NCBI RefSeq assembly: GCF_009834025.1
Contig: NZ_CP047156.1
Coordinates: 3,742,067 to 3,806,066 of the forward strand
Origin: Epidermidibacterium keratini
Lineage (GTDB): Bacteria > Actinomycetota > Actinomycetes > Mycobacteriales > Antricoccaceae
DNA: 64,000 nucleotides
Reading direction: 5' to 3'
A model generated the notes under the pieces. The model was not told where the DNA came from. It saw nothing but the letters and a program-made list of their open reading frames with translations, and did no database searches. Made by a program: the position numbers and the translations under genes. The first letter of the stretch is position 1. Each line of letters opens with the position of its first letter. Of this stretch, positions 5,755 to 41,228 are shown one piece after another.

Positions 5755-6359
5755 GTCGGCGATGAGGTGCGATTCGAGATCATGCTGACCCCGGGAGGCG
5801 GCGCACCGGCGGCAGAGGCCAGCAGGTCGATCCAGGCACGCAGGTGTCCAGAGAGGTCAGTCGTGCGGGCCGTCCAGGAGGCGCGCATCTCCAGGTCGTT
5901 GGTCGCCTCCTTCGCCGACTCAGAGCCTGCGAGATCGCCGTACCGCGTCGAGGACGTGCGCGTGACGGTGCCACCAAGTGCGGTGTAGTCGGCGCCGGCC
6001 TGCTCGAGCGCGTCGGTCAGCCAGGTCCAGGACACGTCGCTGAGCGCGGGGTCGCCGGCGATGTCGGCTTCCATGCTCGCCGAGATGTAGGACACGATGC
6101 GCAGCGTGCCGTCCCAGGCCTCGTGTCCGTCGGGGTCGTGCAGCACGACGAGCCGGCCGGTCGCCTCGGCGGCCTCGGCCTGCGGGTCGACGAACACCTC
6201 CGCGCCGAGGGCGTGCGAGTATGGCGCCAGGCGCTGCGGAGCCCGGATCGGCTCGAGGGTGACCTCGGGGCGCACCGTCACGCCAGTGAGGCTGGAAATC
6301 GCCTCCTGAAACTCCTGCGGTGCGGCGGACTGTGGATCGGTGGTATCGGGACGTGTCAC
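5751..6359 (-). CDS. DUF3000 family protein
   Basis: 202 residues; matches the actinobacterial DUF3000 family (segments ALGAEVFVDPQAEAAEATGR and VLHDPDGHEAWDGTLRIV). No catalytic motif, signal peptide or membrane helix is visible. In many actinobacteria it sits between hemE and an RNase D-like gene, as here, but no biochemical role is known to me. The start is GTG and the ribosome site is weak. It is divergent from hemE, with a 78-bp shared spacer. Confidence 0.8.
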   Translation of the reverse strand: MTRPDTTDPQSAAPQEFQEAISSLTGVTVRPEVTLEPIRAPQRLAPYSHALGAEVFVDPQAEAAEATGRLVVLHDPDGHEAWDGTLRIVSYISASMEADIAGDPALSDVSWTWLTDALEQAGADYTALGGTVTRTSSTRYGDLAGSESAKEATNDLEMRASWTARTTDLSGHLRAWIDLLASAAGAPPPGVSMISNRTSSPT

Positions 6360-6437
6360 ATCGAACAGCCTAAGTCGGCATCCTCACATCGCCTTGACGG
6401 CACGCCGGGCGCGTCGCGGTGCAACGATGGGAGGGCG

Positions 6438-7538
6438 ATGACGAACTCCGGCATAGACCTGCAGGGCAGCGGTACGGCGAGCGACGACGAGCGCTCTGAT
6501 GACGGGCGTCCGCCCGGCGCGTCGAGCGCCCTGGTGCGGGCCGCGCGCCGCGAGCCCACGGCGTATACGCCCGTGTGGTTCATGCGCCAGGCCGGACGTT
6601 CGCTGCCGGAGTACCGCAAGCTGCGCGAGGGCATCTCGATGCTCGAGTCCTGCATGCGCCCGGACCTCATCACCGAGATCACGCTGCAGCCGGTACGCCG
6701 CCACGGCGTGGACGCGGCGATCTTCTTCTCCGACATCGTGCTGCCGCTGAAGGCGCTGGAGCTGGACCTCGACATCGTGCCCGGCGTCGGGCCGGTGATC
6801 GCCCAGCCAGTGCGCACGATGCAGGACGTGGAGCGGATCCCCGAGCTCACGCCCGAGCACGTCTCGTTTGTCAGCGAGGCCGTCGCGATGCTGGTGCGCG
6901 AGCTCGGCGGGACTCCGCTGATCGGGTTCGCGGGGGCGCCGTACACGCTCGCGTCCTACCTCATCGAAGGTGGCCCGTCGCGACACCACGAGAAGACCAA
7001 GGCCTTCATGCATGCCCAGCCCGACGTCTGGAACGCGCTGCTGGCGCGGTTGGGGCAGATCTCGGCGGAGTTCCTGCAGGTGCAGATCGACGCTGGGGCG
7101 AGCGCCGTCCAGCTCTTTGACTCGTGGGCCGGCTCGCTCTCGCGGGCGACGTACGAGAGATTTGTGCGTCCCCACAGCGAGCGCATCTTTACCTCTATCG
7201 GCGACGCCGTCCCGCGCATCCACTTCGGCGTCGGCACGGCTCAGCTGCTGCGCTCCTTCGGCGAGGCCGGTGCCGACGTCGTCGGCGTCGACGCCGTGAC
7301 GCCGCTCGATGAGGCCAGCGCGCTCATCGGCCCCGACCACGCCGTGCAGGGCAACCTCGACCCGGCACTGCTGTTTGCCGACTGGGAGAGCATCGAGACC
7401 GAGGTGCGCCGGATCGTCGCCGAAGGCCGACGTACTCCCGGGCACATCTTCAACCTGGGCCACGGCGTACTCCCGGCCACCGACCCGGACGTGCTGACGC
7501 GGGTCGTGGCACTCGTGCACGAGATCTCCCAGCGCTAG
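6438..7538 (+). CDS. hemE: Uroporphyrinogen decarboxylase
   Basis: 366 residues from ATG at 6438, preceded by GGGAGGG six to eight bases upstream; a longer in-frame extension is possible but has no better start. The signature PVWFMRQAGRSLPEYR carries Arg50 and Arg54, which grip substrate carboxylates, and the catalytic Asp99 is in FFSDIVLPL. LIGFAGAPYTLASYL and NLGHGVLPATDPD complete the family pattern. It removes four carboxyl groups from uroporphyrinogen III to give coproporphyrinogen III. It leads the hemE-hemY-hemQ operon (6-bp gap, then 4-bp overlap). Confidence 0.96.
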   Translation: MTNSGIDLQGSGTASDDERSDDGRPPGASSALVRAARREPTAYTPVWFMRQAGRSLPEYRKLREGISMLESCMRPDLITEITLQPVRRHGVDAAIFFSDIVLPLKALELDLDIVPGVGPVIAQPVRTMQDVERIPELTPEHVSFVSEAVAMLVRELGGTPLIGFAGAPYTLASYLIEGGPSRHHEKTKAFMHAQPDVWNALLARLGQISAEFLQVQIDAGASAVQLFDSWAGSLSRATYERFVRPHSERIFTSIGDAVPRIHFGVGTAQLLRSFGEAGADVVGVDAVTPLDEASALIGPDHAVQGNLDPALLFADWESIETEVRRIVAEGRRTPGHIFNLGHGVLPATDPDVLTRVVALVHEISQR

Positions 7539-9809: not shown

Positions 9810-10229
9810 CTATTCGGCGGGCTCGAGCGTGAGGCTGATGCTGTTGATGCAGTAGCGGTCGTCGGTCGGCGTCGGGTAGCCCTCGCCGTGGAAGACGTGC
9901 CCGAGGTGGCTGTGGCAGTTCGCGCAGATCACCTCGACGCGGCGCATCCCGAGCGTGTTGTCCTCCTTGAGGATCACGGCGTCGGAGTCCGACGGCGCGT
10001 AGAAGCTCGGCCAGCCGCAGTGGCTCTCGAACTTGGTGTCCGAGCGGAACAGCTCGGTGTCGCACGCCCGGCAACGGTAGACCCCGACGGTCTTGGTGTC
10101 GGTGTACTCGCCGGTGAAGGGCCGCTCGGTTGCCGCCTGGCGGAGTACGGCGTACTCCTCGGGGCTGAGCTGCTCACGCCACTGCTCGTCGGACTTGGTG
10201 ACCGCAGGCTGCGGGGTGTCGGTAGTCAT
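9810..10229 (-). CDS. msrB: Peptide-methionine (R)-S-oxide reductase
   Basis: 139 residues. Structural zinc cysteines are seen as CRAC (53, 56) and CANC (102, 105). The catalytic cysteine is Cys127 in RYCINS; Cys71 in ESHCGWPSF lies in a family-conserved block. It reduces the R-epimer of methionine sulfoxide in proteins, repairing oxidative damage in the cytoplasm. It is a single gene converging on hemQ across a perfect hairpin. Confidence 0.96.
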   Translation of the reverse strand: MTTDTPQPAVTKSDEQWREQLSPEEYAVLRQAATERPFTGEYTDTKTVGVYRCRACDTELFRSDTKFESHCGWPSFYAPSDSDAVILKEDNTLGMRRVEVICANCHSHLGHVFHGEGYPTPTDDRYCINSISLTLEPAE

Positions 10230-10298
10230 GCCTCAACGGTACGACGATCCGTGCCATGCGCGGTACCGCAGCGCGAACGCCGCCGATACGGTGAGCCC

Positions 10299-11381
10299 AT
10301 GGCGACTGCACCGGTGTTCTTCGACGTCGACGGCGAGCAGGTCAAGATCAGCAGCCCTGACCGGATCTGCTTCCCCGAGCGTGGCATCACCAAGCTGCAG
10401 GTCGCCGAGTACTACCTCGCTGTCGGCCCGGGAATCCTCGGTGCGGTACGCGACCGGCCGACAGCCCTGGAGCGGTGGCCAAAAGGCGTCATCCCGCTCG
10501 ACCCCGACAAGCCGGTGAGCCCGGCCAACGGCGACTTCTTCTACCAAAAGCATGTGCCCAAGAAGGGGATGCCGGAGTACGTCGGCACCGTGCGGATCAC
10601 CTTCCCGAGTGGCCGGCCCGGCACCGAGATCTGCCCGGACAACCTCGCGTCGGTGATGTGGGCGGTCAACATGAACACGGTGACGTTTCACCCCTGGCCG
10701 GTCACCCGCGAGGAAGTCGACAGGCCCGATCAGCTGCGCATCGACCTCGATCCGCAGCCCGGCACCGATTTCAGTGACGCGGTGCGGGCCAGCGGCGTAC
10801 TGCGCGAGGTCCTCGACGACTTCGGGCTTGCCGGGTTCCCGAAGACCAGCGGCGGGCGCGGGCTGCACGTCTACGTCCCGATCGCGCCGCGGTGGGAGTT
10901 CCTGGACGCGCGGCACGCGCTCATTGCGCTCGGGCGCGAGGTCGCGCGCCTCGCCCCGGATCTGGTCACGATGGCGTGGTGGAAGGAGGAGCGCGGCGAG
11001 CGCGTCTTCATCGACTACAACCAGATGGCCCGCGACCGGTCGATCGCCTCGGCGTACTCGGTGCGCGCCAATGCCCGCGCGACCGTGTCAGCGCCCCTGC
11101 GCTGGGACGAGGTCGACAGTGTGCAGCCGGAGGACTTCGACGTCATCAGCATGCCGGCTCGGTTTGCCGAGGTCGGCGACATTGCGACCGAGCTGTACGA
11201 CGCCCCTGCCGGGGACATCTCCGGTCTGCTGGAGCAGTTCGAGCGCGACAAGACCGACCGCGGCGAAGGCGAGATGCCCTTCCCGCCGGACTACCCGAAG
11301 ATGCCCGGCGAGCCGCCGCGGGTGCAGCCGAGCAAGAAGGTCGCCGAGCACTGGGATGACGAGGGCAACCGCAAGGCGTGA
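10299..11381 (+). CDS. Prim-PolC-type DNA primase-polymerase (LigD-polymerase-like)
   Basis: 360 residues from ATG at 10299; a longer in-frame reading exists but overlaps msrB. The family block VKISSPDRICFPERGITK opens the domain. The catalytic metal site is in LRIDLDPQPGTDFSDA, and SGGRGLHVYVPI is the conserved nucleotide-handling loop. There is no ligase or nuclease domain, so it is a stand-alone polymerase. Its partner converging two bases away is LigC, the same pairing as mycobacterial Prim-PolC/LigC, which acts in gap filling during base-excision repair. Ku is not in the window, so a role in end-joining is less likely. Confidence 0.88.
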   Translation: MATAPVFFDVDGEQVKISSPDRICFPERGITKLQVAEYYLAVGPGILGAVRDRPTALERWPKGVIPLDPDKPVSPANGDFFYQKHVPKKGMPEYVGTVRITFPSGRPGTEICPDNLASVMWAVNMNTVTFHPWPVTREEVDRPDQLRIDLDPQPGTDFSDAVRASGVLREVLDDFGLAGFPKTSGGRGLHVYVPIAPRWEFLDARHALIALGREVARLAPDLVTMAWWKEERGERVFIDYNQMARDRSIASAYSVRANARATVSAPLRWDEVDSVQPEDFDVISMPARFAEVGDIATELYDAPAGDISGLLEQFERDKTDRGEGEMPFPPDYPKMPGEPPRVQPSKKVAEHWDDEGNRKA

Positions 11382-11383
11382 GC

Positions 11384-12466
11384 TCAGGTGGTCGGTGAGT
11401 AGGCGAGTACGCCGCTGAACGGGTAATCCTCTGGCCGCTCGATCTGATCGAGCGTGCACGAGCGCGGGTCGCGGTCGGGCCGGAACCGGCGGAACTTGCC
11501 GAGGTGTCGCAGCCGCGGGCCCTGGAACTGGTCGTAGCCGATCTCGACCACAAGCTCCGGACGCACCGCCTCCCAGCTCATGTCCTTCCCGGCGTTCCAG
11601 CGGTTGAGGTTGCCCGGCTTACGCTCACCGTCCATCGCTTCTTTCCAGCCACCCCAAGGATGTTCGGACAGCGACTCGACGCGGTACGGCGCGAGCTCCT
11701 CGACCAGCTCTGCGCGCCGCTTCATCGAGAACGCCGACGTGGCGCCGATGTAGTGCAGCGCGCCGTCGTCGTCGTACAGCCCGAGCATCAGCGAGCCGAC
11801 GATGCCGCCGGACTTGTGCCAGCGAAAACCAGCGATGACCGCATCAAGATCGCGCTGATGCTTGAGCTTTGCGTAGATTCGCGCGCCCGGCTCGTACGCC
11901 GAGTCGAGCGGTTTGGCGATGAGCCCGTCGAGACCGGCGCCTTCGAACTCGACGAACCACTGCATCGCCAGCTCCGCGCTGGTCGTCTCCGGAGTGAGGT
12001 AGAGCGGCGGGCGCACGCCGTCCAATTCGGAGCGCAGGAGTGAGCGACGCTCACCGAGTGGGCGGCTCATCAGCGACTCGTCGCCGAGCGCGATGAGATC
12101 GAAGATCATCATCGAGGCTGGCGTCTTCTCGGCCAGCATCTGCACTCGAGAGTCGGCCGGATGGATGCGCTGCTGCAGCGCGTCGAAGTCGAGCCGCCCG
12201 TCGGTCTCGACGATGATCTCGCCGTCGAGCACGCACCGCGGGGGCAGCTGCTCGCGCAGGTGCGCGACCAGCTCGGGGAAGTAGCGCGTCAGCGGCTGCG
12301 ACGCGCGGCTGCCGATCTCGATCTCGTCGCCGTCCTTGAAGACGATGGCGCGAAAGCCGTCCCACTTCGGCTCGTAGATCCAGCCCTCGCCCGTCGGCAG
12401 CGACTTCGCGGGCTTGGCCAGCGTGGGCTGGAGAGGGTGCGTCACCGGCAGCGTCATGGCGCTCAC
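11384..12466 (-). CDS. ligC: ATP-dependent DNA ligase C
   Basis: 360 residues, the length of mycobacterial LigC. The adenylated lysine is Lys34 in YEPKWDGFRA; VLDGEIIV, FEGAGLDGLIAK and YAKLKHQRD form the remaining nucleotidyltransferase motifs. The C-terminal OB-type domain ends with the LigC-like PDRDPRSCTLDQIERP. It seals nicks after gap filling, probably with the converging Prim-PolC. The GTG start overlaps the AmaP-like gene stop by four bases (GTGA); an in-frame ATG three codons on is the alternative. It is thus the last gene of the Asp23 operon by layout. Confidence 0.9.
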   Translation of the reverse strand: MSAMTLPVTHPLQPTLAKPAKSLPTGEGWIYEPKWDGFRAIVFKDGDEIEIGSRASQPLTRYFPELVAHLREQLPPRCVLDGEIIVETDGRLDFDALQQRIHPADSRVQMLAEKTPASMMIFDLIALGDESLMSRPLGERRSLLRSELDGVRPPLYLTPETTSAELAMQWFVEFEGAGLDGLIAKPLDSAYEPGARIYAKLKHQRDLDAVIAGFRWHKSGGIVGSLMLGLYDDDGALHYIGATSAFSMKRRAELVEELAPYRVESLSEHPWGGWKEAMDGERKPGNLNRWNAGKDMSWEAVRPELVVEIGYDQFQGPRLRHLGKFRRFRPDRDPRSCTLDQIERPEDYPFSGVLAYSPTT

Positions 12467-35835: not shown

Positions 35836-36854
35836 AGATCGGCATCAACGTCGCGCCGTACGACGACGACGGGCTGCGCGTCGCGGTGGAAGCAGACCAG
35901 CTTGGTGTGGACTCGCTGTGGGCGCCGGAGGCGTGGGGCTACGACGCATTGACTCCTCTGGCCTTCGTCGCCGCCCGCACCCAGCGAGCGCGGCTGATCT
36001 CTGGTATCGCGCAGCTTGGTGCGAGAACTCCTGCCATGCTTGCGATGTCGGCGATGTCTCTGCAGGCTCTCTCGAATGGACGGTTTGTCCTCGGCCTCGG
36101 GGTCAGCGGTCCACAGGTGGTCGAAGGCTGGCACGGGGTCCCGTTCGCAAAGCCCGTGACGCGCACCCGAGAGACGGTGGAGATCGTTCGGGCGCTATGC
36201 CGCGGCGAGCGATCGTCGTACGACGGAAAGATCTTCCAGCTGCCACTTCCCGGCGGTGAAGGCAAGGCGATTCGGTCGATGGCGCCACCCGTGGACGTGC
36301 CAATCTTCCTGGCCGCGTTGGGACCTGCGAACCTACGGCTCACCGGAGAGATCGCGGACGGGTGGATCGGTAACTCCTTCCTAGCCGGCGCGCCGGAGTC
36401 TGCCGAAGCGCTGCTCGGACCGATTCGCGAGGGCGCAATCGAAGCCGGTCGCGACCCGGACGCGATCGAGCGAACTGTTGCTGTATCGCTGGAGTTTTCC
36501 GACGATGTCGAGTCGGTCGCGGCCAAGCACGCGGGCGGCTACGCCTTCACGTTTGGTGCGATGGGCAGCGGCAAGAGCAACTTCTACAGCTCGGCTTTTG
36601 AGCGCCAGGGGTACGGCGACCAGATCGCCGAGGTGCACCGGCTGTGGCAGGCCGGAGACCGTGAGGCAGCGGCCCGGGCCGTGCCACTGGAAATAGGGCT
36701 GCGCACCAACCTGCTCGGCACCGATGACACAGTGCGTGAGACATTGCGGGGCTTCGCCGATGCCGGGATCGACACGCTGCGGGTCAACCTGGTCGGTGAC
36801 GACGCCGACACCCAGCTTGCCGCGCTCGACCGACTGTTGTCTCTCATCAACTAG
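35832..36854 (+). CDS. Luciferase-like (LLM) F420-dependent oxidoreductase
   Basis: 340 residues from GTG. It has the LLM barrel pattern: VAVEADQLGVDSLWAPEAWG at the start, QALSNGRFVLGLGVSGPQVV, and a F420-enzyme-type FLAALGPANLRLTGEIADGW. These enzymes move hydride with deazaflavin F420 or FMN; substrate unknown. It is translationally coupled to the SRPBCC gene, suggesting a common small-molecule pathway. Confidence 0.82.
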   Translation: MKIGINVAPYDDDGLRVAVEADQLGVDSLWAPEAWGYDALTPLAFVAARTQRARLISGIAQLGARTPAMLAMSAMSLQALSNGRFVLGLGVSGPQVVEGWHGVPFAKPVTRTRETVEIVRALCRGERSSYDGKIFQLPLPGGEGKAIRSMAPPVDVPIFLAALGPANLRLTGEIADGWIGNSFLAGAPESAEALLGPIREGAIEAGRDPDAIERTVAVSLEFSDDVESVAAKHAGGYAFTFGAMGSGKSNFYSSAFERQGYGDQIAEVHRLWQAGDREAAARAVPLEIGLRTNLLGTDDTVRETLRGFADAGIDTLRVNLVGDDADTQLAALDRLLSLIN

Positions 36855-36889
36855 GAGTCATCGCTGGTTCAGCAGGTATCTCGTCAGGC

Positions 36890-36948
36890 GGTGGTGGTTT
36901 CGACGGACGCCGCTCGCCCCGAGGGGCTCGCGCCTGCTCAACCACCGA
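36890..36948 (-). repeat. REP-like intergenic repeat, copy 2
   Basis: Read leftward it starts CGGTGGTTGAGCAGGCGCG and ends with GTCGAAACCACC, the two conserved ends of the family. It is the most complete copy and lies just past the LLM stop, in the 217-bp spacer before the convergent bluB-cobT gene. Confidence 0.65.
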
Positions 36949-36969
36949 GTTGCGGCGTCCCGCTTTATC

Positions 36970-37048
36970 GGTGATCGAGCAGCGAGGGAGCGTTAGCGAC
37001 TGAGCGGTTGTCGAGATCCCCAAACCGCCGTCTGCTCAGCCACCGAGC
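36970..37048 (+). repeat. REP-like intergenic repeat, copy 3 with partial inverted copy
   Basis: GGTGATCGAGCAGCGAGG and GGTTGTCGAGATCC mark a rightward copy (36970-37021); it runs into an inverted fragment containing CTGCTCAGCCACCGAG (37031-37047). With copy 2 this spacer holds nothing but such repeats. Confidence 0.6.
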
Positions 37049-37071
37049 TCGAGCCGGGATTGCTCAGATAG

Positions 37072-38754
37072 CTAGTGCGTGCGGGCGACGCCGCGCCGGA
37101 TGGCGAGCCCGTCCAGTAGCAGCCCGCACGCCAGTGCCGCACCGACGCCCTCACCGGAGCGGATGCGCAGATCCAGCAGCGGCTCGAGGCCGAGCTCGGC
37201 AAGCACGTCAGAGTGTGCCGACTCGCGGGAGCGCTGGCCGGCGACCAGATGAGCCACGACGCCAGGCTCCAGGCGGGCCGCGATGAGCGCGCACACGCTG
37301 GTCGCGAGCCCGTCGAGTACGACGCCGGCGCCGGCCTCGCACGCGCCGAGGACGACACCGGTGAGCACCGCGAACTCCGCGCCACCGACCGTGCGAAGCA
37401 CATCGTCAGGCGCCCGGGTGGTGAGCCGGGCAAGGGCTTGCGCGACGACATCGCGCTTGCGGTCGAGCATCGCGGCATCGGCACTGGCACCGCGCCCGAC
37501 CACATCATCGGGGGAGCGCCCCAGCAGCGCAGCGGTAAGCGCGGCCGCGACCGTGGTGTTGCCAATGCCGATCTCGCCGAGGGCCACGATGCCGTGACGC
37601 CCGGCGCGTGAGCCGGCCGCCTTGCCGTCCGCAACGAGCCGGGTCAGCTCATCGCGATCCAGAGCATCGGCCGCGGTGATGTTTCCGCGTCGTACGCCGA
37701 CTCCGGCGTCGATCGTGATGAGCTCAAGCCCGGCCGACCGTGCCGCAACCGCGCCCATCGACTCACCGCGCGTGGTCGCGGCAAACACGTCGCGAGTGAC
37801 CGTCGTGTCGAAGGCACTGACGCCGTGGTCGGTGACGGCGTGGTCAGCGGCGGCGACCACCAGCGTTCCGCTCTCCAGCGGGCCAGGCAGCGCGGTGAGT
37901 CGATCGAGCACGCGATCGAGGACGCCGAGCGAGCCCGGTGGGGTCAACAGCTCATCGGCGCGGTCGCGGGCAGCGACGACCCGGTCCTGGTTCGGGGCAG
38001 CGAACCTGTCACCAGCCAGATGCGACGGGGGAGGCGTCGCGTCAGCCTCCCAACGCTCGTGCATCACGACATCGGCCAGCGGCTGGCGTTTCGACCACCC
38101 GGCGCGTTGCAGGCCCGGCTCCGGCGGGCGCTCGTCGGGCCAGCCAAGGCACAGCCAGCCGAGCGTCTCGACACCGTCGGGCAGACCCAGCAGCGCGGCG
38201 AGCTCGGCCGGCTCAAACAGCGTCACCCACCCCATGCCGAGCCCGTAGACCCGAGCGGTCAGCCACATGTTCTGGATCGCGGTGGCGCAACTCCACAGGT
38301 CGGCATCGGGGAACGTCGCTCGGCCGAGTACGCCGGCAGCCGGCGTACGCCGATCACAGGCCACGACGATTCCGACGGGAGCCTCGCGGATGCCCTCAAG
38401 CTGCAGGTCCAGCAGCCCACGGGCCGAGGCCTCGTCCATCTGGGCGGCCTGCTTGATCCGAGCACGGTCAGCCATCGCTGCAGCGGCGTCGCGGGTGCCC
38501 GGCTCGCGAACGACGATGAACCGCCACGGCTGGGAATGCCCGACCGATGGTGCGCGATGGCCGGCTTCGAGTACAGCGGTGAGTATGTCGTCGGGGACGG
38601 CGTCAGGTCGGTATCGCCGTACATCCCGGCGCGCAGCGACAACGTCGGCAAGTCCGAAGATGTGCTCGGGCATCTGCCATCCGCGCGGATCACTGGCCCG
38701 ATCAGCGGCGCTGCTGCCGTCGCCGATCGTGGGCACCGGGCGCGGATAAGTCAC
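37072..38754 (-). CDS. BluB-CobT fusion: DMB synthase plus DMB phosphoribosyltransferase
   Basis: 560 residues with two enzymes in one chain. Residues about 28-235 are a BluB-type flavin destructase (ARRDVRRYRPDAVPDDILTA, GHRAPSVGHSQPWRFIVVRE, WSCATAIQNMWLTARVYGLG), which makes 5,6-dimethylbenzimidazole from reduced FMN. Residues about 255-560 are CobT: ELLTPPGSLGVLDRVLDRL, VVAAADHAVTDHGVSAFD, IGIGNTTVAAAL and the catalytic Glu in RSGEGVGAALA, which makes alpha-ribazole phosphate. Together they make and activate the lower ligand of cobalamin. A start at MPEHIFGL (codon 28) is possible. No other cobalamin gene is in the window. Confidence 0.92.
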   Translation of the reverse strand: MTYPRPVPTIGDGSSAADRASDPRGWQMPEHIFGLADVVAARRDVRRYRPDAVPDDILTAVLEAGHRAPSVGHSQPWRFIVVREPGTRDAAAAMADRARIKQAAQMDEASARGLLDLQLEGIREAPVGIVVACDRRTPAAGVLGRATFPDADLWSCATAIQNMWLTARVYGLGMGWVTLFEPAELAALLGLPDGVETLGWLCLGWPDERPPEPGLQRAGWSKRQPLADVVMHERWEADATPPPSHLAGDRFAAPNQDRVVAARDRADELLTPPGSLGVLDRVLDRLTALPGPLESGTLVVAAADHAVTDHGVSAFDTTVTRDVFAATTRGESMGAVAARSAGLELITIDAGVGVRRGNITAADALDRDELTRLVADGKAAGSRAGRHGIVALGEIGIGNTTVAAALTAALLGRSPDDVVGRGASADAAMLDRKRDVVAQALARLTTRAPDDVLRTVGGAEFAVLTGVVLGACEAGAGVVLDGLATSVCALIAARLEPGVVAHLVAGQRSRESAHSDVLAELGLEPLLDLRIRSGEGVGAALACGLLLDGLAIRRGVARTH

Positions 38755-38784
38755 CGTGCCAGGGTACGGCGTACCGATCCGGAG

Positions 38785-39213
38785 TTAGTCCTTGGAGCGG
38801 CGCTGACGCGGTTCGGTCGGCTGCCCGGCCTCTTTCCACGCGCCGAAGCCCCCATCCATGTGCGCGACGTCCTCGACGCCCATGTCAGTCAGCGACGCGG
38901 CCGACAGCGCCGACCGCCAGCCGCCGCCGCAGAAGAGCACGAGCTTCTTGCCGTTGTCGAGCTCGGAGCGGTAGTAGGGGCTCTCGGGGTCGACCCAGAA
39001 CTCGAGCATTCCCCGGGGGGCATGGATTGCGCCGGGGATGGTGCCCTCTCGGTCGAGCTCGCGCACGTCGCGGATGTCGACGAACTGCACGTTAGGGTCT
39101 TCGCGCCGTTCTGCCGCTTCGGCGACAGACAGCGTCTCGACCTTCGCGTCAGCCTCCGCCACGATCGTCTTGAAGTTCCGCGCGAGGGGCTCGCCGGGTT
39201 GGCGCTTGCTCAT
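38785..39213 (-). CDS. Rhodanese-like domain protein
   Basis: 142 residues from ATG at 39213 (an in-frame start four codons earlier exists). One rhodanese domain: VQFVDIRDVRELDREGTIPG, then the active-site loop LFCGGGWRSALSAASL with the cysteine present, so it can carry a persulfide. A sulfurtransferase or sulfur-carrier role in the cytoplasm is likely. It lies 30 bases from the bluB-cobT start on the same strand. Confidence 0.88.
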   Translation of the reverse strand: MSKRQPGEPLARNFKTIVAEADAKVETLSVAEAAERREDPNVQFVDIRDVRELDREGTIPGAIHAPRGMLEFWVDPESPYYRSELDNGKKLVLFCGGGWRSALSAASLTDMGVEDVAHMDGGFGAWKEAGQPTEPRQRRSKD

Positions 39214-39365
39214 GAGCGACTCCACACCAGTTGGGCGCCGGACGGGACGCGGCGCGTTCGATAACGGTTAGGTCAGACATTACGCCGCCGGTAGGTGAAC
39301 CAGGACACAGATGCGCGGAGTGCGGTTAACATGCGTGTCACACCGCAGCCCGACGGAAGGCCATC

Positions 39366-41228
39366 ATGACCGCAGGCAACCCGACCACCGGACCCGAGTC
39401 GACCGCAAACACCCAAGTCACAGCGCCAAATAGCGACCTCGACGTCTCGGAGATGAGCAGTGTCGGCGAGCTGTTCCGAGCGCGGGCGGCCGCCACGCCA
39501 AACGGCGAGGCGCTGCGCTTCCGTGGCGCTGACGGTAACTGGACGTCGCTGACGTGGGCCCAGACCAAGGACCGCGCCTACGACTGGGCAGCGGGGTTGA
39601 TCGCGCTCGGGGTTGAGCCGCAGGACAGGGTCGCGATCGCGAGCGCCACCCGCGTCGAGTGGGCGTTGGCCGACCTGGCGGCGATGTGTGCCGGTGCCGC
39701 GACGACGACGGTATATCCGACCACTATCGCCGGCGACGTGGCGTACATCCTCACTGACTCTGGTAGCCGAGTCGTCATCGCCGAGGACGACGAGCAGATC
39801 GAGAAGCTCCGTGCGCATCGCGACGAGCTGGGCGACGTCATCAAGGTCGTGACGTTTGCAGGCACGCCGGACGGCGACTGGGTGATCGACACCGACGAGC
39901 TCGCTCGACTCGGTCGCGAGCTGCTGGCCGACAAGCCGGACGCCGTCGATGCGCGCATCGATGCGCTGCGACCCAGCGAGCTCGCAACGATCATCTACAC
40001 CTCAGGTACGACGGGCAAGCCGAAGGGTGTGCGCCTGTCGCATTCGGCGTGGATCTTCACCGGTGCGGCAACCCAGGCCAACGGTCTGCTGACGACCGAC
40101 GACCTGCAGTTCCTATGGCTGCCACTGGCCCACGTGTTCGGCAAGGTGCTGCTGACAATCCCTCTCGTGATTGGCTTCCCGACCGCGATCGACGGGCAGA
40201 TCGACAAGATCGTCGACAACGTAGGCGAAGTTAAGCCGACCTTCATGGGCGCTGCACCGCGGATCTTCGAGAAGGCCTATGCGCGCATCAACCAGATGCT
40301 GCAAAGCGAGGGCGGCGTGAAGGGCAAGATCGCGCACTGGGCACTGGGAGTCGCGCAGGAGTCGATCCCGGCGCGAGAGCGTGGCGAGCAGCCGAGCGGG
40401 CTGAAGTTCAAGATCGCCGACAAGCTGGTGATGGGCAAGGTTCGCGATCGCTTCGGTGGTCGGGTGCGCTTCTTCATCTCCGGCTCGGCGCCGCTCAATC
40501 TCGATGTGGCGAAGTGGTTTGGCTCGATGGGCCTGCTCATCCTCGAGGGATACGGGCTGACCGAGACGAGCGCCGCGGCCACCTTGAACGAGCCAGACGC
40601 GTTCAAGTACGGCAGCGTGGGCAAGCCAATCGCCGGCTCCGAGGTCAAGATCGCCGAGGATGGGGAGATCTTGATCCGGGGCGGCCAGGTGATGCAGGGC
40701 TACCACCACCGCGACGACGCGACCGCTGAGGTGCTCACCGCCGACGGCTGGTTCCATACCGGCGATATCGGCCACCTTGACGACGACGGGTTCCTCTTCA
40801 TCACCGACCGCAAGAAGGATCTGTTTAAGACCTCAGGCGGCAAGTACGTCGCTCCCTCGCAGATCGAGTCGCGATTCAAGGGCATCTGTCCGTTCGTCAG
40901 CCAGTTCGTCGTACACGGCGCATCGCGCAACTACGCCACCGCACTCGTCACGCTGGACGAGGAGGCGATCACCGGCTGGGCGACGCAAAACGGCCTGGGC
41001 GGCAAGTCGTACGCCGAGATCACCCAGGCGCCGCAGACCCGCGAGATGGTGCAGGGCTACATCGACAAGCTCAACTCCGAGCTCAACCGGTGGGAGACGA
41101 TCAAGAAGTTCGAGATCCTCGACCACGACCTGACTGTCGAAAACGGTGACCTAACCCCGAGCCTGAAGCTCAAGCGCAAGGTGGTCATGGACAAGTACAA
41201 GGACGACCTGGACTCGATGTACCAGTAG
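39366..41228 (+). CDS. fadD: Long-chain fatty acid-CoA ligase (AMP-binding)
   Basis: 620 residues. The adenylate-forming core motifs are TIIYTSGTTGKPKGVRLSH (P-loop), LEGYGLTETSAAATLN and GDIGHLDDDGFLFITDRKKD; GGKYVAPSQIE is the hinge, and the C-terminal Lys lies near DLTPSLKLKRKVV. Size and the long-chain type linker suggest long-chain acyl-CoA synthetase. It activates fatty acids for beta-oxidation or lipid synthesis. Single gene with 152 bp of upstream spacer in which I see no clear operator. Confidence 0.92.
   Translation: MTAGNPTTGPESTANTQVTAPNSDLDVSEMSSVGELFRARAAATPNGEALRFRGADGNWTSLTWAQTKDRAYDWAAGLIALGVEPQDRVAIASATRVEWALADLAAMCAGAATTTVYPTTIAGDVAYILTDSGSRVVIAEDDEQIEKLRAHRDELGDVIKVVTFAGTPDGDWVIDTDELARLGRELLADKPDAVDARIDALRPSELATIIYTSGTTGKPKGVRLSHSAWIFTGAATQANGLLTTDDLQFLWLPLAHVFGKVLLTIPLVIGFPTAIDGQIDKIVDNVGEVKPTFMGAAPRIFEKAYARINQMLQSEGGVKGKIAHWALGVAQESIPARERGEQPSGLKFKIADKLVMGKVRDRFGGRVRFFISGSAPLNLDVAKWFGSMGLLILEGYGLTETSAAATLNEPDAFKYGSVGKPIAGSEVKIAEDGEILIRGGQVMQGYHHRDDATAEVLTADGWFHTGDIGHLDDDGFLFITDRKKDLFKTSGGKYVAPSQIESRFKGICPFVSQFVVHGASRNYATALVTLDEEAITGWATQNGLGGKSYAEITQAPQTREMVQGYIDKLNSELNRWETIKKFEILDHDLTVENGDLTPSLKLKRKVVMDKYKDDLDSMYQ

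Follow-up and report, generated by a model that had tools for sequence, protein, structure and literature searches.

The closest described system is the BluB/CobT2 fusion of the cheese bacterium Propionibacterium freudenreichii (CBL56167.1), which has been purified and which formed 5,6-dimethylbenzimidazole (DMB) from FMN with NADH and turned DMB into alpha-ribazole phosphate with nicotinate mononucleotide (NaMN) (Deptula et al., 2015, PMC4657239). According to the same source, alpha-ribazole phosphate exceeded the DMB obtained from the first reaction alone by about 2-3-fold, use of adenine was not detected and channelling was supported; the protein has 626 residues, a mass of 66.4 kDa and a linker of about 34 residues with 23% proline (PMC4657239). 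BluB-CobT fusions are described there as rather widespread among Actinobacteria, that of Streptomyces griseus having an N-terminal part of unknown kind (PMC4657239). In a later study, 338 sequences more than 50% identical to the P. freudenreichii fusion were reported and six organisms, including Terrabacter and Blastococcus, were chosen by the fusion gene for a vitamin B12 assay (Dudko et al., 2023, PMC10038948). The existence of the fusion, both of its activities and the idea of channelling have thus been published. Stand-alone BluB (S. meliloti, PDB ID: 2isj) and CobT (Salmonella, Thermus) share the families and the compared residues of such fusions but are separate proteins.

The stretch of DNA analysed here (64 kb, hereafter the window) comprises positions 3742067-3806066 of a 4.02-Mb one-contig assembly. 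The original prediction, that BluB and CobT are joined in one 560-residue protein at 37072-38754, had the coordinates right and both domains match; the strand, which it left unstated, is minus.

Gene and domain organisation

The BluB-CobT fusion is real and is encoded in one open frame of 560 codons (Table 1). The aligned relatives are homologous from residues 1-3 onwards and keep the first 30 residues, and ten N-terminal residues are invariant in 14 aligned fusions (R5, P6, P8, G11, D12, A16, R19, A20, P23 and W26). Because of this conservation, the GTG start is likelier than an in-frame ATG at codon 28.

Table 1. Coordinates of the fusion gene, its parts and its upstream neighbour in the window
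Feature	Position	Strand	Basis or remark
bluB-cobT fusion gene, 560 aa	37072..38754	-	GTG start at 38754; stop ending at 37072
Conserved N-terminal segment, residues 1-34	38653..38754	-	Alignment of 14 fusions
BluB (DMB synthase) domain, residues 35-230	38065..38652	-	TIGR02476; PDB 2isj
Codon of Thr178, aligned to BluB Ser167	38221..38223	-	Residue alignment
Short linker, about residues 236-252	37999..38049	-	Alignment; boundaries approximate
CobT-type (DBI_PRT) phosphoribosyltransferase domain, residues 254-557	37084..37995	-	PF02277
Rhodanese-domain protein, directly upstream of the fusion	38785..39225	-	Domain match

The domain search proposed with the original prediction placed each half in a curated family. 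The BluB half passed TIGR02476 with 223.5 bits (equivalog cut-off 150) and the CobT half passed PF02277 (DBI_PRT) with 249 bits (gathering cut-off 22.6); PF00881 (Nitroreductase) also matched the protein, at 114.5 bits. On TIGR03160 the CobT half scored 217.3 bits, below the equivalog cut-off of 319.3, which was counted against a CobT reading, and this half is classed as a DBI_PRT of CobT2 type and not as a TIGR03160 equivalog. The best PDB sequence matches were BluB 2isj (7e-51) and Thermus CobT 1j33 (8e-46). Eight residues separate the aligned BluB and CobT pieces, and the linker is shorter than the published one of about 34 residues in P. freudenreichii BluB/CobT2. An AlphaFold model of the fusion had a mean pLDDT of 67.2, with a poor BluB half, a weak linker and an interface that is not readable from the model. 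The best Foldseek matches of this model were structures of CobT and ArsAB, BluB 2isj ranking 28th; this comparison confirmed the two folds only.

Locus L124 encodes 626 residues with a mass of 66.4 kDa and a proline content of 25% at 258-293 (23.5-26.5% in 34-residue linker stretches), and is probably the P. freudenreichii enzyme, an assignment made from length, mass and linker only. Over 602 columns the window protein shares 52% identity with L124, and it has the same BluB-CobT order as BluB/CobT2. In both proteins the BluB half lies above TIGR02476 and the CobT half below TIGR03160, the latter by a like amount (212.4 bits against 319.3 for L124). After residue 352, the CobT half of the window protein has a loop that is 13 residues shorter than in L124 and two Blastococcus fusions, a difference that was counted against the window protein behaving like BluB/CobT2. 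The fusion is an ordinary member of the published BluB/CobT2 family.

Distribution and phylogeny of the fusion

A search of named genomes returned 17 loci (L002-L018), 14 of which (L002-L015) cover the query in full or lack only its C-terminal end, with 59-71% identity in the best segment. L016 holds a CobT half where a contig begins, and the other two loci match the BluB half distantly (27%). Thirteen relatives were 61-72% identical to the window protein over the aligned part, a range that also holds for the Terrabacter/Terracoccus and Blastococcus fusions among L002-L014; the Terrabacter and Blastococcus strains compared are not necessarily those assayed previously (PMC10038948). The fusion gene of Blastococcus tunisiensis (L015) is spread over three frames, by a frameshift or an assembly error.

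Fusions of the window type (type A) were found near full length in 21 of 149 other genomes of an order sample, with 61-68% identity, and as partial matches in two more (G142; G130, over two contigs), while two genomes carried a fusion type of 43% identity. In a class sample searched at 1e-60, 61 of 296 genomes matched, the own genome included; seven of the others had type A (in one case divided between two contigs) and 53 a type of 36-44% identity. At the same threshold 27 of 97 genomes in the family of G390 matched, comprising 24 of type A, some of them cut, and three of the other type.

This second type (type B) likewise encodes BluB and then CobT in a single frame but is only 36-44% identical to the window protein, has a linker of 19-37 residues, and carries Ser at BluB position 167 and Trp/Met at the CobT S80/Q88 positions, where type A has Thr and the window protein F/V. 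Three type B frames (L063, L072 and L084) read, stop to stop, 342-504 residues before the BluB match, a segment without a Pfam match at 0.001; a fourth reads 14 residues before it (stop to stop). Type B is probably the fusion reported for S. griseus with its extra N-terminal part.

Trees were calculated for each half, as quick trees with a program warning that long branches meet, after removal of alternate type B rows, of L118 and L128, and of the repeats L129-L131. All 58 type A rows fell on one side of a branch both in the BluB-half tree (85 rows, SH-aLRT 99) and in the CobT-half tree (82 rows, SH-aLRT 100), and a single origin of the type A fusions is likely from these sequences. The nearest rows to the window protein in both trees were Terrabacter and Terracoccus. 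In the four further genomes searched from the same family (G002, G018, G031 and G041) the best E-values were only 6e-40 to 2e-44, so the type A fusion appears absent there and is therefore patchy within the family; horizontal transfer or loss is likely to lie behind the type A distribution. Each of these four genomes has a BluB-half match, and G018 and G031 have a separate CobT match, among the matches listed.

Cobalamin genes and proposed function

The check for other cob genes proposed with the original prediction found aerobic corrin-ring genes, a cobaltochelatase and cobD, cobU, cobS and cobO elsewhere on the contig. cobG matched at 183.8 bits, below its cut-off of 234.8, with cobH and a fused cobI-cobJ alongside, and cobN lies on the opposite strand from these genes, behind a cobalamin riboswitch. 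cobM, cobL (CbiE/CbiT), cobK, cobB and a cobA-type methyltransferase were matched on the same contig, and a ChlI/ChlD-type cobaltochelatase and a CbiM-type transporter are present, each preceded by a weaker riboswitch match. cobU, cobS and cobD are grouped together, with cobO elsewhere; cobU (157.4 against 161) and cobS (TIGR00317, 86.5 against 110) scored below the NCBIfam cut-offs and above those of Pfam. The below-cut-off scores of cobG, cobU and cobS were counted against the de novo reading. The genome also has four matches to B12-binding domains, and genes for a substrate-binding protein, a FecCD permease and an ATPase follow its best-scoring cobalamin riboswitch. CbiZ had no match in the genome, the same search being positive in five of 14 control genomes. 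The CobI-CobJ fusion of this genome is a 505-residue protein (L050:11452-12969, minus strand).

Since no other DBI_PRT (PF02277) match exists in the genome, the fusion most likely provides the normal lower-ligand step of the aerobic de novo pathway, and we hold with high confidence that it is a bifunctional enzyme of this step. Domains, residues, family placement and genome context, the basis of this reading, were computed for the window protein, and both reactions, their coupling and the failure to use adenine are transferred by analogy from the P. freudenreichii enzyme. The BluB half would act on reduced FMN and O2, breaking the flavin down to DMB; the CobT half would then move the phosphoribosyl group of nicotinate mononucleotide onto DMB to form alpha-ribazole phosphate, the product that CobS (cobamide synthase) would join to GDP-cobinamide. 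With the two sites on a single chain, DMB is probably handed on with little loss. The original prediction had joined DMB synthesis to its activation with channelling as a possibility, in agreement with the published conclusion for BluB/CobT2 (PMC4657239), and by analogy we infer that the window fusion would do likewise, with channelled transfer.

The further proposal, of an enzyme dedicated to the scavenging or remodelling of imported corrinoids, was not supported. It is true that none of the window ORFs scanned (37 of 54 chosen, at E-value limits of 0.001 to 1e-20) is another cobalamin gene, as had been predicted, but a window free of cob genes says little, because these genes sit elsewhere on the same contig. 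The uptake-type operon behind a cobalamin riboswitch would also suit scavenging; against it stand the aerobic de novo genes, the lack of a CbiZ match and the fact that de novo synthesis would be left without another candidate from PF02277. Scavenging or remodelling as the main role is thus very unlikely and was rejected on genome content, and salvage may be a further role of the fusion, given the uptake-type gene set that follows a riboswitch. As judged from genome content, the organism is likely a producer of cobalamin and not of pseudocobalamin, and the bifunctional enzyme proposed here adds a member to the fusion family used to pick aerobic producers of true vitamin B12 (PMC10038948).

Active-site residues

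In the CobT half, SeCobT residues E317, E174 and K213 align with E535, E394 and K433 of the fusion protein, K213 being taken by us as a key CobT residue. E317 is described as the general base and E174 as a ribose contact in PMC9561151. The SeCobT S80 and Q88 positions, which steer the choice between adenine and DMB, are occupied by F and V in P. freudenreichii BluB/CobT2 (PMC4657239) and by F315 and V323, both hydrophobic, in the window fusion. In the base pocket, Phe315 and Val323 would favour DMB over adenine.

In the BluB half, D32 corresponds to D44, and the R-R-D-x-R motif, G61 and the GWV motif are likewise kept. D32 and S167 are presumed here to be active-site residues of S. meliloti BluB, Ser167 being presumably important in that enzyme. 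At the Ser167 position Thr was found in 58/58 other type A fusions (36/36 and 22/22 in two alignments) and Ser in 27/27 type B fusions (24/24 and 3/3) and in all 11 stand-alone BluBs. The rows counted in the first alignment exclude the window's own entries (L001 and L019), L021 and L026 as copies of L006 and L007, L015 for its interrupted frame, and L016 and L060, each with a single half; in the second, L128 has no readable residue at this position. The expectation that both halves keep their key motifs was borne out for E317, E174, K213 and D32, with the qualification that Thr replaces BluB Ser167. The following residue is Leu in all 58 type A rows and Phe in the 27 type B fusions, and the 11 stand-alone BluBs read Ser-Phe or Ser-Ile at 167-168.

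The Thr was counted against full BluB function, and its presence throughout type A could mean that the BluB half lacks flavin-fragmenting activity, with only the CobT half working on DMB that is taken up. D32 and the BluB motifs named above are kept, however, and this Thr also occurs in L124, the protein that fits the P. freudenreichii enzyme whose assay showed formation of DMB (PMC4657239). Thr at 167 is compatible with activity because L124 also has it, if L124 is the assayed enzyme, and an inactive BluB half was accordingly set aside as extremely unlikely. An open-access literature search on BluB S167/D32 gave no title or abstract on these residues among the matches listed, and the available part of PMC3573010 holds nothing on them; the type A-wide change from Ser to Thr is a small point bearing on flavin fragmentation that was not met in the open-access literature searched.

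Type A fusions differ in both halves, with S167T and Leu at 168 in BluB and, in CobT, Ser/Ala for Leu at 315, mostly Val for Gln/Met at 88, and Ala at 91 where others mostly have Asn. It is conceivable, though rather unlikely, that these coupled changes at both active sites evolved together as a DMB hand-over route, a true structural channel and not mere proximity.

Two separate products by internal initiation, for which an ATG at codon 231 lies close to the domain boundary, have almost no likelihood and were set aside, since this ATG is kept in only 3/13 relatives, the frame across the linker is unbroken in the matched part of 13/13, in support of the single product originally predicted, and no purine-rich ribosome site was seen by eye before the ATG, a weak point as the main GTG likewise has none.

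Genomic neighbourhood

The stop of the rhodanese gene lies 30 bp from the fusion start on the same strand, and co-transcription of the two is possible. No rhodanese neighbour was found at 1e-10 in loci L002-L018, some of which have short flanks, and at this threshold the neighbourhood gave only weak single-neighbour matches (25-35% identity) in 8 of these 17 loci. An Rfam scan of the 64-kb window at the gathering threshold gave no match, cobalamin riboswitch included, a promoter and terminator scan of 36800-39450 found nothing, and a plasmid collection searched with the fusion at 1e-40 yielded no match.

Elsewhere in the window, a HemE frame (5844-7538, plus strand) has about 228 residues before its URO-D domain (match at 229-560 of 564) and is followed by protoporphyrinogen oxidase and HemQ; its start codon may be further in. 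At 9888-12466, a LigD-type primase-polymerase and a separate ATP-dependent DNA ligase lie end to end on opposite strands and are perhaps a split non-homologous end-joining set.
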